Source of the DNA: Neocallimastix lanati (nom. inval.)
Taxonomy: Eukaryota; Neocallimastigomycota; Neocallimastigomycetes; Neocallimastigales; Neocallimastigaceae
Length of the DNA stretch: 47,500 bases
Assembly: GCA_016946835.1 (NCBI GenBank)
Contig: JACVTC010000088.1
Span: 457,501-505,000 of the forward strand
Direction: 5' to 3'
The position numbers and the translations under genes are program-made. Below the pieces are notes generated by a model. The model saw only the letters and a program-made list of their open reading frames with translations, did no database searches and had not been told where the DNA came from. Shown one piece after another: positions 3,520 to 29,858 of this stretch (position 1 is the first letter of the stretch; each line of letters starts with the position of its first letter).

Positions 3520-4806
3520 TTATAACTTTTTAAAAGCTTGAATGAAATCAGCCTTAATATCATCAATATGTTCAATACCAACACTAATTCTTAAAAGATC
3601 TGGAGTAATACCTCCTGCTTTCTTTTCTTCATCACTAAGTTGTTCATGAGTAGTACTGGCTGGATGGACAATAAGAGTCTTGGCATCTCCAACATTAGCT
3701 AAATTAGAAACGAGTTTAAGGTTAGAAATGAAAGAGGCGGCACCATCATAACCCTTCTTTAAACCGAAAGTAAGAACACCACCATAACCATGCTTTAAAT
3801 ATTTCTTAGCATTAGCATAAGTTGGATGATCTGGAAGACCAGCATAAGAAACCCAAGCAACTTCATCGCGAGTCTTTAACCATTGAGCAAGTTCTAAGGC
3901 ATTATCAACATGTCTTTGAGCTCTTAATGATAAACTTTCTAATCCAAGAAGATTTATGAATGTACTAAATGGACTTTGACATGGTCCAATATCACGAAGT
4001 AATTCAGCTCTGCAACGGAAGATGAAAGCAAGATTGCCGAAAGCTTCACTGAACTTTAATCCATGATAAGATGGACTTGGTTCAGTAAATTGTGGGAATT
4101 TACCATTCTTCCAATCGAATTTACCACTATCAATGATAACACCACCAATAACTGTACCATGACCATTAATCCATTTAGTAGTAGAATGGATAACAATATC
4201 AGCTCCATACTTAATTGGTTGAACTAAATAACCTCCCATACCAAAAGTATTATCAACAATTAAAGGAATACCATGCTTATGAGCAATAGCTGCAAATCCT
4301 TCAAAATCTGGAACATAGTGAACTGGATTACCAATAGATTCAATATAAATAGCCTTAGTCTTATCATCGATTAAAGGTTCGTAGTCCTTTGGATCAATAG
4401 TATCAACAAACTTGAAAGTAATACCGAAATCTTTGAAGATATTTTGGAATAAATTGTGAGTACCACCATAAATGAAACTGGAAGTAATAACATTGTCACC
4501 ATTCTTAGCAATAGCAGCAATAGAGATAAATTCAGCAGATTGACCACTAGAAGTAACAAGACCAGCGGCACCACCTTCTAAGGCAGCAAGTCTCTTTTCA
4601 ACAACATCGTTGGTTGGATTAGTTAATCTGGAATAGATATTACCAACTTTTCTTAAACCGAATAAATCGGCACCATCATTAATATCCTTGAAAACATAAG
4701 AAGAGGTAGCATAAATTGGGGCAGCTCTTGCTTGAGTAGCTGGATCAACAACTTGACCGGCGTGAACTTGTAAAGTTTCAAAGTGTAATTCTTGTTCGGA
4801 ACTCAT
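3520..4806 (-). CDS. O-acetylhomoserine sulfhydrylase, copy A (428 aa)
   Basis: A PLP-dependent Cys/Met-metabolism enzyme of the MET17/MetY type that joins O-acetylhomoserine and sulfide to give homocysteine. Family features: YSRLTNPT (Y58, R60, contacts PLP of the neighbouring subunit), FIYGGT with Y113 (ring stacking), VDNTF with D185 (PLP nitrogen), [10 protein letters not shown] with Schiff-base lysine K211, and RISVG with R407 (substrate carboxylate). Length is usual for the family. ATG start, TAA stop, no intron, no targeting signal. Together with copy B it has [20 protein letters not shown] and FDWKNGKF where the other copies have [20 protein letters not shown] and FDWTNGKF (FDWTSGRF in E). 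It ends plainly in FIQAFKKL. Related Cys/Met enzymes (cystathionine synthase or lyase) are less likely given the length and the WINGHG context. Confidence 0.95.
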
Positions 4807-7106
4807 TTTTTACTAATTATGAATCTTAATTTGTTTATACTTTGCTTTTTTTTTTTTTTTTTTTAATTATTAAATTTTTATTTTAACAAATATCAAGTTA
4901 TTTTGATATTAAATAATTGATTTTATTGTTATTTTATTAATTAATTATTTGTTAATACAAAAAAAATGAAATTATTTTTGGAGGAAAATTTACTCATTTT
5001 TATATAATTTAGTACTAATGTTTTTTAAGGTTATCAATTTCTTATTTGATTTTAAATAATGATCTTCTATATTAATCCATAATTTTTTTTTTCTTTTTTA
5101 TTATTATATTTTTATTTTAATAAAAAGAAATTAGATCAAACTTTTTTTTTTCAAATAACAATATAAATGTCAATTTTAGTTTACTTTCAGCCAATGAAAT
5201 AAATTCATTTATTTTTAAAATTTTTAAAATTTTTTTGAAATTAAGTTAATATTTGTTTATTCTGAACAAATAAAATATTAAAATTTATAATACAATCATC
5301 AATGTTACACTCATTTTTAATTAAATTTAAAGATAATTTTTGAGTTAAAAAAAGGTTAAATGGATAATTAACCTGATGAATAAAAGATTAATATAAGATT
5401 TTTATTTTTTATTATATATATAACTTATAATTATATTGTGAAAGAAAAAAAATAATAAAAATAAATAAATATTTATATATATATATATAATTTTTTAAAA
5501 CATGTTGACTTGTTTATACATATTTTATTATAAAAGTTTTTTTTTTCTAAATATTTTTTTTTATTAGTTCTTTTGTATTAATGAATATATATTAAAATTA
5601 AAGTTGAGTATTTTAATTAAGTCTTGTTTAATTAAGATTTGTATTTATTAAATTAAATACATTATTTATAATTTTGTACAATGTAAAATTATATGTGGCG
5701 TTTAAATGATGTAAATTATGTATTACAATTGTAATTAATATAGTTAATATGGGAATAGTTCATTTCTCAATCGTGCATTAAGTAATATGGCTTATAAATA
5801 TTTAAAATAGAGCCATACATTAAGATATTCTATACAATCATAAATAAATATATAAATAAATAAATAAATATTTAAATATATAATTAAATAAATATATTTT
5901 TATAATTAAAAATTATTAAATAACAATTTCAATAGAAATAATAATATATTCTATTAAAAAAGAAATATAAAAAATTATTTTCACAATATTAATAAATTAT
6001 ATATAAAAAAAAATATTCATTATTATTTATTATTTATTTAATTATTAAAAACATGCCATATGATAAAATACTCCACATTATGAAATGCACTACATTCATT
6101 AATATAGTTAAACTTTATTTATGTTTATACATTTTGTAAAGGATTATGATAATTAATCCTATTATTAAATAATTAAAAAATAAAATTATTAAAATAACAA
6201 TAAAAATAAAATAAAGTGATCACTTAATGAAAACTAAACAATAATACAAAAATATAAAAACATATTACATCTTTTTAAATATTTTATATATTATATTTAA
6301 TCAGGATTAATTTTATAGTATGATTAAATTTGTGCTGTACTATAATTATAAAAAGTTAAAAATAATAAATTCTCCAATAATTTTAAAATTGTTATTAAAA
6401 ACTATTATTATTTTTTCTTGGTAACAAATATGAATAGAATATTAATAAATATTAATAATTAAAAATAATATAAAAATAAATATTAACAAAAAAAAAAAAA
6501 ATATATATATATATATATATAATTATAATATAGTAATGAATGAAGAGACAGAGATAAAAAGTATCCATTAAATATTCAAATCTTTTAAAATTAAGCACAT
6601 TTTTATTTTTTTTATTCTTAATTTTTTTTTTTTTTTGGCATTATTTCCTTTCTATTATTATTTAATTGTAAATTTAATGCTGAAGTATAATATATATATT
6701 ATAAAAATGCTGTTTAACTTTGCTTTATTGATATTTAATTATATATAAAAACATAAAAAGATTATTAAAAAGATAATTTTTTTTCACAGTTGATTCCATA
6801 AAAATAGTATTTATTTTAACACTTTTATTATTTTAATATATATAAAGTATCACTAAACATAATTTTTGTATCATATATATTACATAAAACTAATATATAC
6901 CAAAACAATATTGTCACAAAATTTTATTTGTATACATAATTAAATAAAAATGGCAATTCTATCATTTATTAATCTTTATTTATTCTCTATATATATTTAA
7001 TTTTTTTTTCTATTTTAAAATTTATTTTATATTTATTTATTTAGTTTTATATATTAATACATATGAAAGTGTTTGAAATAAAAAATATAGTATAATTATA
7101 TATTTA
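4807..7106. other. AT-rich spacer between copies A and B
   Basis: No gene seen. It contains poly-T/poly-A runs, AT-dinucleotide tracts (near 5470-5490 and 6500-6520), and a 7-bp inverted repeat TATGGCT/AGCCATA (5786-5792/5811-5817). The part next to 4806 must hold the promoter of copy A, but no element could be assigned. Confidence 0.75.
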
Positions 7107-28577: not shown

Positions 28578-29858
28578 ATGTCTGAAAAATTACATTTTGA
28601 AACTTTACAAGTTCATGCCGGTCAAATTGTTGATCCAGCTACTCAAGCAAGAGCTGTTCCAATTTATGCTTCTACTTCTTTTGTATTCGAGGATATCAAT
28701 GATGGTGCCGATTTATTCGGTTTAAGAAAAGTTGGTAATATCTATTCCAGATTAACTAATCCAACTAATGATGTTGTTGAAAAGAGACTTGCTGCTTTAG
28801 AAGGTGGTGCTGCTGCTCTTGTTACTTCTAGTGGTCAATCTGCTGAATTCCTTTCCATTGCTGCTATTGCTAAGGACGGTGATAATGTTATTACTTCCAG
28901 TTTCATTTATGGTGGTACACACAATTTATTCCAAAATATCTTCAAAGATTTCGGTATTACTTTCAAGTTTGTTGATACTATTGATCCAAAGGACTACGAA
29001 CCTTTAATTGATGATAAGACTAAGGCTATTTATATTGAATCTATTGGTAATCCAGTTCACTATGTTCCAGATTTTGAAGGATTTGCAGCTATTGCTCATA
29101 AGCATGGTATTCCTTTAATTGTTGATAATACTTTTGGTATGGGAGGTTATTTAGTTCAACCAATTAAATATGGAGCTGATATTGTTGTTCATTCTACTAC
29201 TAAATGGATTAATGGTCATGGTACAGTTATTGGTGGTGTTATCATTGATAGTGGTAAATTTGATTGGACAAATGGTAAATTCCCACAATTTACTGAACCA
29301 AGTCCATCTTATCATGGATTAAAGTTCAGTGAAGCTTTCGGCAATCTTGCTTTCATCTTCCGTGCTAGAGCTGAATTACTTCGTGATATTGGACCTTGTC
29401 AAAGTCCATTTAGTACTTTCTTAAATCTTCTTGGATTAGAAAGTTTATCATTAAGAGCTCAAAGACATGTTGATAATGCCTTAGAACTTGCTCAATGGTT
29501 AAAGACTCGTGATGAAGTTGCATGGGTTTCTTATGCTGGTCTTCCAGATCATCCAACTTATGCTAATGCTAAGAAATATTTAGAACATGGTTATGGTGGT
29601 GTTCTTACTTTCGGTTTAAAGAAGGGTTATAATGGAGCTGCTTCTCTCATTTCTAATCTTAAACTTATTTCTGATTTAGCTAATGTTGGAGATGCCAAGA
29701 CTCTTATTGTCCATCCAGCCAGTACTACTCATGAACAACTTAGTGATGAAGAAAAGAAAGCAGGAGGTATTACTCCAGATCTTTTAAGAATTAGTGTTGG
29801 TATTGAACATATTGATGATATTAAGGCTGATTTCATTCAAGCTTTTGAAAAATTATAA
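28578..29858 (+). CDS. O-acetylhomoserine sulfhydrylase, copy F (426 aa)
   Basis: Complete enzyme with all family residues (PLP lysine K209 in [10 protein letters not shown]). Sequence type as C, D and E; closest to C over most of its length ([30 protein letters not shown]), but with GYNGAASL as in B and D, so it too mixes features. FVFEDIND is unique (the others have FVFKDIND or YVFKDIND). Plain C-terminus [11 protein letters not shown] start after AAAAAAA, TAA stop, no intron. It is the last copy of the array. Confidence 0.95.

Follow-up and report, generated by a model that had tools for sequence, protein, structure and literature searches.

We analyzed a window of 47,500 nucleotides from the gut fungus Neocallimastix lanati (nom. 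inval.) (GenBank assembly GCA_016946835.1, 199 Mb in 762 contigs; contig JACVTC010000088.1, here C750:457501-505000), which carries six intact, intronless open reading frames (ORFs) for O-acetylhomoserine sulfhydrylase (OAHS) and one OAHS relic. Our analysis showed that a second OAHS array in the same genome, on contig C2, is colinear with the window array: upstream DNA pairs four of the five full C2 genes with window-array genes on the same strand, although the coding cores are more alike within each array than between these positional partners. We consider it fairly probable that this is an old array of mixed orientation whose coding cores were homogenised by gene conversion, which provides a high dose of enzyme for external sulfide and which includes a second, tailed form of that enzyme. 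In kind it is ordinary, a gene array under concerted evolution, though an unusually readable one.

Two colinear sulfhydrylase arrays

The array genes were assigned by homology. In family-library scans of two of the six window copies, both matched PF01053 (1e-130 and 6.4e-131) and TIGR01326 (644.8 and 642.9 bits against a cut-off of 495.1, over profile positions 1-418 and 1-417 of 418), which supports the OAHS identity proposed in an earlier sequence-only reading of the window. The closest solved enzymes by sequence were FUB7 and yeast homocysteine synthase, and a structure model of the tailed copy W22310t (mean predicted local distance difference test score, pLDDT, 78.3; predicted template modelling score, pTM, 0.80) had FUB7 as its top Foldseek match (E 4.0e-61; template modelling score, TM, 0.84/0.92). 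FUB7 (PDB 8erb/8eqw) is thus the best PDB match in both sequence and fold, with 58.8% identity over 420 residues; Met17 (Met15/Met25) of Saccharomyces cerevisiae (PDB 8ovh), of the same enzyme family, is 59.6% identical to W28578 over 421 residues. FUB7 is a Fusarium enzyme of the fusaric-acid cluster; no fusaric-acid-type neighbours occur among the window genes identified (nitrilase-like and pectinesterases), a set that is not an exhaustive annotation of the neighbourhood. Residue K211 (W22310t numbering), which we take to be the lysine that binds pyridoxal 5'-phosphate (PLP) in the OAHS family, is invariant in 30 aligned proteins, including three of the six window copies and 19 bacterial proteins, and the remaining three window copies have the same 10-residue stretch around it. 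By these similarities, the array genes are predicted to encode homocysteine synthase (OAHS), a PLP-dependent member of the Met17/MetY/FUB7 group, which joins sulfide to O-acetylhomoserine, the reaction given for yeast Met17p in an excerpt of PMC9757880.

The window array consists, in order, of W3520 (3520..4806, minus strand; 428 amino acids), W7338 (7338..8645, minus; 435 amino acids, with an 11-residue extension at 7341-7373), W14877 (14877..16163, plus; 428 amino acids), W18222 (18222..19535, minus; 437 amino acids, with an 11-residue extension at 18225-18257), W22310t (22310..23734, plus; 474 amino acids), the relic (26251..26478, minus) and W28578 (28578..29858, plus; 426 amino acids), with W18222 and W22310t forming the left and right halves of a divergent pair. 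The coordinates and orientations (- - + - + +) of the six genes had been read correctly from the sequence, as had a decayed seventh copy, which proved to be an N-terminal relic of the first 76-78 codons with three internal stops and 45-50% identity to the intact proteins. Open frames are kept in 6/6 window and 5/5 C2 full copies, and the ratio of nonsynonymous to synonymous divergence (dN/dS) among distinct copies is 0.04-0.43.

A whole-genome OAHS search returned 28 matching stretches, which belong to 18 close loci and to several more remote ones. Fifteen of the close loci are distinct, intact, full-length copies (six in the window, five on C2, two on C104, and one each on C566 and C741), all of them intronless open frames and one form of them tailed, whereas yeast has one MET17 gene (PMC9757880, in excerpt). 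This count leaves out C351, which has the same coding sequence as one of the C104 copies, C431, whose copy is cut by the contig end, and C268. The C351 and C431 stretches are 99.8% and 98.7% matches to the C104 locus, and redundant contigs of this kind could suggest that the array itself is an assembly artefact. We regard this as extremely improbable, because the window copies differ by 2-7% in DNA and have unlike flanks, and all six lie inside one 787 kb contig in a window without N. A pairwise DNA identity of 92.6-98.0% (0.926-0.980; dS 0.067-0.209) together with unlike flanks does not correspond to assembly duplication, and it also makes the earlier description of the copies as near-identical too strong. 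The C268 copy (L020, C268:199280-200564) is split over two frames around codons 372-381, and no second OAHS match is listed beside it, unlike in its relative C104.

The C2 array has the order C2_445 (minus), a relic (minus), C2_451 (plus), C2_455 (plus), C2_471 (minus) and C2_475t (plus); the relic (C2:448263-448722, minus; L009:8263-8722) retains pieces of codons 5-62, 135-202 and 398-435. Since blastn flank identities of 65-70% were discarded as noise (random identity there is 0.39-0.43 before gapped extension), upstream DNA was compared by composition-corrected scores against reversed sequences, for 105 pairs at 300 bp and 1000 bp. At 300 bp, the highest scores after the control pair C566/C741 were those of W3520/C2_445 (z 12.1), W22310t/C2_475t (z 8.4) and W14877/C2_455 (z 6.4), and at 1000 bp W18222/C2_471 ranked second of 105 (z 8.6); the latter two genes also have a 10-residue extension in common. 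The best C750 partner of the C2 relic at 1000 bp was W7338 (z 2.4), and the end of this relic is similar to the DD-LVEAF extension found in W7338 and W18222. No clear upstream partner was found for C2_451, W28578 or the window relic. The downstream 300 bp were less telling (W18222/C2_471 z 4.2, W22310t/C2_475t z 3.9, W3520/C741 z 4.3), and inside C750 the highest upstream score at 300 bp among 21 pairs, relic included, was z 1.9. Four of the five C2 genes are therefore paired by upstream DNA with C750 genes on the same strand, and the colinearity of the arrays is newly found here. Both arrays also have a pectinesterase-like neighbour, an open frame adjoining the window array at 31559..32650 (minus) whose C2 counterpart (481350-482426) lies on the opposite strand and is 86% identical in amino acids.

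The possibility that the C2 array is an allele of the window array was rejected, as the non-coding DNA lacks colinearity at high identity. The homeolog-like locus pairs C45/C246, C457/C24, C566/C741 and C750/C2 have dS values from 0.16 to 0.53, which could reflect an ancient duplication of the genome, a hybrid origin or strongly diverged haplotypes; 2.7 kb align at 83% in the C566/C741 pair (dS 0.158) and 3.1 kb at 86.6% in the MetE pair (dS 0.206). An excerpt of PMC8665504 describes ploidy as unknown and Caecomyces as likely diploid or dikaryotic.

Coding cores and the tailed isoform

The coding cores relate the copies differently. Values of dS are 0.067-0.209 within C750, 0.029-0.137 within C2 and 0.186-0.324 between the arrays, and 22 sites, 21 of them at third codon positions, are fixed differences between all six C750 and all five C2 copies. 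In a coding-core DNA tree of 15 rows (C351 omitted), all five C2 copies fall into one clade (99/100). Approximately unbiased (AU) tests on the coding core rejected the positional pairs W3520+C2_445 (4.6e-50), W18222+C2_471 (3.3e-48) and W14877+C2_455 (7.7e-6), and mosaic structure was found in W7338 (break between codons 303 and 313, p 0.0002) and in C104_22t (p 0.0002). Copies within an array are thus more alike than positional partners even though the upstream pairing and the shared tail and extension indicate that the units are older than the separation of the arrays, which is the pattern that defines concerted evolution.

We infer that an old array was homogenised by gene conversion. At least four units, and probably five (-,-,+,-,+), would predate the split into C750 and C2, after which the coding cores would have been overwritten inside each array, whereas positional ancestry would survive in the upstream DNA, in the gene ends, in the tail and in an internal patch. 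The copies do not have the look of recent duplicates, and the array appears older than the split of the two homeolog-like loci. A comparable case is that of the tandem arrays of Trypanosoma brucei, for which an excerpt of PMC1855330 reports that copies within an array co-evolve, probably by gene conversion, and that structurally distinct copies can stay apart, as here; those arrays are tandem and polycistronic, whereas the present one has mixed orientation, 2.5-6 kb spacing and homogenised cores with unlike flanks.

Two alternatives would dispense with gene conversion. Each array could have expanded recently and independently from one or two genes, as the lower dS inside arrays than between them, the C2 clade and the lack of a clear partner for C2_451, W28578 and the window relic might suggest. 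This account is already disfavoured, and we regard it as improbable: it does not explain why four C2 genes match, in their upstream DNA, C750 genes of the same order and strand, why W22310t and C2_475t have a tail and patch in common, or why W18222 and C2_471 have the same 10-residue extension, and recent copies should share flanks, as those of a C490 array described below do, but the C750 upstream DNA does not. Alternatively, purifying and codon selection alone could have kept old copies alike, in agreement with their strong codon bias and low dN/dS; synonymous sites are not neutral, so that dS understates age. Selection common to both arrays is nevertheless insufficient to produce array-specific synonymous differences, and with the 22 fixed differences (21 third-position) and the mosaics left unexplained we consider this very improbable.

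Several results weigh against homogenisation of an old colinear array. The six C750 copies are not a clade, since W3520 and W7338 fall outside the other four and C2 (82/99); homogenisation is therefore evident in C2 and less complete in C750. AU rejection of the tailed pair W22310t+C2_475t is weak (p 0.0149), and the six further mosaic settings, of eight, gave p 0.0008-0.106, uncorrected for multiple tests. Regarding position, W18222/C2_471 is weak at 300 bp upstream (z 2.4), where non-positional pairs reach z 3-4.8; the fifth pairing is weak, W7338 and the C2 relic scoring z -1.3 at 300 bp; and the C2 relic and C2_471, both inside C2, score z 7.1 at 1000 bp. Finally, a quick protein tree of part of the copies joins W22310t with C2_475t (SH-like approximate likelihood ratio test, SH-aLRT, 99), a pairing that we read as selection keeping their protein differences.

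These two proteins and C104_22t end in a basic C-terminal tail, and each is the right member of a divergent pair. W22310t and C2_475t have 15 sites in common that are absent from the other nine array copies, while the other 29 cross-array pairs have 0 or 1. Seven of these sites lie at codons 86-102 (the patch, 22565..22615, plus, in W22310t), one each at codons 183, 234 and 236, and five at codons 423-427, where the tail begins (codon 423 to end; 23576..23731, plus). Three of the 15 (codons 86, 94 and 95) are found in the two C104 copies as well and may therefore be ancestral. Over codons 86-102, dN between the two genes is 0 versus 0.21-0.24 to their array neighbours; over codons 7-85 and 103-422, the tailed copies are closer to their neighbours (dS 0.055-0.148) than to their partner (0.302 and 0.271). 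AU tests likewise rejected a grouping of the three tailed genes (3.8e-5) and of C104_22t with W22310t (6.7e-55). The tail itself evolves faster (dN/dS 0.44-0.53 among the three genes), being conserved in kind and not letter by letter. In the W22310t model, residues 431-474 have pLDDT <50, a low-confidence linker followed by a helix at 452-473. From what is known of the OAHS family, the patch presumably lies near the PLP site.

One tailed copy stands in each array and another in the C104 pair, and selection has probably kept this isoform apart as a second form of the enzyme. A more specific two-isoform system is possible, if somewhat doubtful: a homogenised, high-dose soluble enzyme would act beside a tailed form that has a separate place or chemistry through its basic helix and altered patch, with selection shielding these segments from conversion in both arrays and the tail also at C104. 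Of the earlier suggestion that the array holds differently regulated or located isoforms, the single tailed and patched copy per array and the upstream regions, unalike within the window array, lend support to a part.

Other related loci, neighbouring genes and mixed-orientation arrays

The remaining OAHS-like matches comprise a group at 46-48% (C235, C745, C588 and C666), two more distant ones (C665 and C752) and the relic. On C666 (L024:4094-7036) and C235 (L021:2069-4975), open frames of 980 and 968 amino acids fuse an OAHS-like enzyme with a cupin resembling dimethylsulfoniopropionate (DMSP) lyase (PF16867, 87.0 and 77.1 bits). The middle part of the C666 protein is weakly methyltransferase-like and its best PDB matches are DMSP lyases, while C588 is a stand-alone relative of the OAHS-like first part. 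A bacterial and archaeal scan gave a best tblastn identity of 63% among the 80 loci kept, and in a quick protein tree of nine copies, 19 of those loci and four solved enzymes (two bacterial, two fungal) no group stood out as the nearest.

The window is strongly AT-rich, with a GC content of 10-27% in 2-kb steps, and no tRNA was found in it. Beside the array lie a pectinesterase gene with CBM_1 (36915-38390) and another pectinesterase-like open frame (41146-42222).

Mixed orientation is not confined to the OAHS genes. CBM_10/dockerin proteins, a mark of anaerobic gut fungi, gave 1,440 first-look candidates in this genome and none in 14 control genomes; 150 of the candidates were scored, and every one listed exceeds the cut-off. 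CBM_10/dockerin ORFs, many of about 470-560 amino acids, are grouped a few kb apart on C106, C490, C740, C761, C279, C423, C312 and C112, several groups being of mixed orientation. The C490 array (10 kb read, three copies, two of them cut by the ends) resembles the window array in having both orientations and a spacing of a few kb. In the first 1,150 bp of coding sequence its copies agree at 99.5-99.7%, and upstream of them 223-294 bp can still be aligned at 85-95%, unlike the upstream DNA of the window array, so that the C490 array looks younger. The sequence-only reading had held the mixed orientation to argue against simple unequal crossing over; it does speak against one multiplied tandem unit, but with such arrays elsewhere in the genome orientation alone says little.

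Unlike flanks and random orientation would also be explained if the original copies had been made by retroposition, via mRNA, and the 15/15 intronless close copies and unlike C750 flanks agree with this. However, the MetX and MetE genes are likewise intronless, so that missing introns say little, and the mixed-orientation copies on C490 do carry flanks. Nor would retroposition account for the present likeness, as the positional pairs predate it. We consider such an origin improbable.

Codon bias, enzyme dosage and sulfide

On a codon scale built from two EF1A copies, the array copies scored 0.37-0.52 and the C104 copies 0.44-0.52, compared with 0.27-0.30 for C566 and C741, 0.31-0.36 for MetX, 0.57-0.58 for MetE and 0.12-0.15 for AT-null draws. 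The four EF1A genes (L119-L122) have dN 0 in 6/6 pairs and dS 0.056-0.159. A carbon-nitrogen hydrolase (nitrilase-like) gene inside the window (12826-13635, minus) scores 0.16, about the level of the AT-null draws and unlike its OAHS neighbours. The bias suggests high expression of the array copies.

Searches for other steps of sulfur assimilation found two MetX loci with full-length intronless frames (454 bits, below the curated cut-off of 500), exon-sized MetX matches on C468 and C168, and two MetE loci with long intronless open frames. Neither ATP sulfurylase (PF01747) nor sulfite reductase (NIR_SIR, PF01077) had a match in the genome, although the ATP sulfurylase profile was found in only 5/14 control genomes and a gene might be concealed by introns or gaps. 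Many codon-biased copies would most likely mean a high dose of an enzyme capturing external sulfide. The dosage idea of the sequence-only reading agrees with the codon bias and with the lack of ATP sulfurylase and NIR_SIR matches, but C745, a distant relative with one locus, has an array-like codon score of 0.41, and cysE-like loci are present, so OAHS need not be the sole sulfide-fixing enzyme.

The array might instead have grown neutrally, in a genome that tends to mixed-orientation arrays, with no selection for dose and with homogenisation as a by-product of closeness and likeness. The mixed-orientation CBM_10/dockerin groups on several contigs, including the three C490 copies in both orientations, are in line with this, as are the relics in both arrays, which show that copies are lost. 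It is harder to reconcile with the open frames of all 6/6 and 5/5 full copies and their dN/dS of 0.04-0.43, with a codon bias above that of C566, C741 and MetX, and with only two long-framed loci each for MetX and MetE. We consider neutral growth unlikely, though not negligible, and favor a role of the copies in enzyme dosage.

A search of the open-licence literature found no paper linking anaerobic fungi or Neocallimastigomycota with O-acetylhomoserine sulfhydrylase or with cysteine or sulfur terms. The arrays make the sulfur supply of gut fungi testable: the two families searched gave no sulfate-reduction gene, and sulfide fixation is represented by 15 intact close copies, whereas the preceding and the following step each have two long-framed loci. 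They also constitute a natural experiment: with two colinear arrays to compare inside a single genome, the segments of a housekeeping enzyme that undergo homogenisation can be told from those that stay distinct, and the latter suggest a second isoform that deserves testing.

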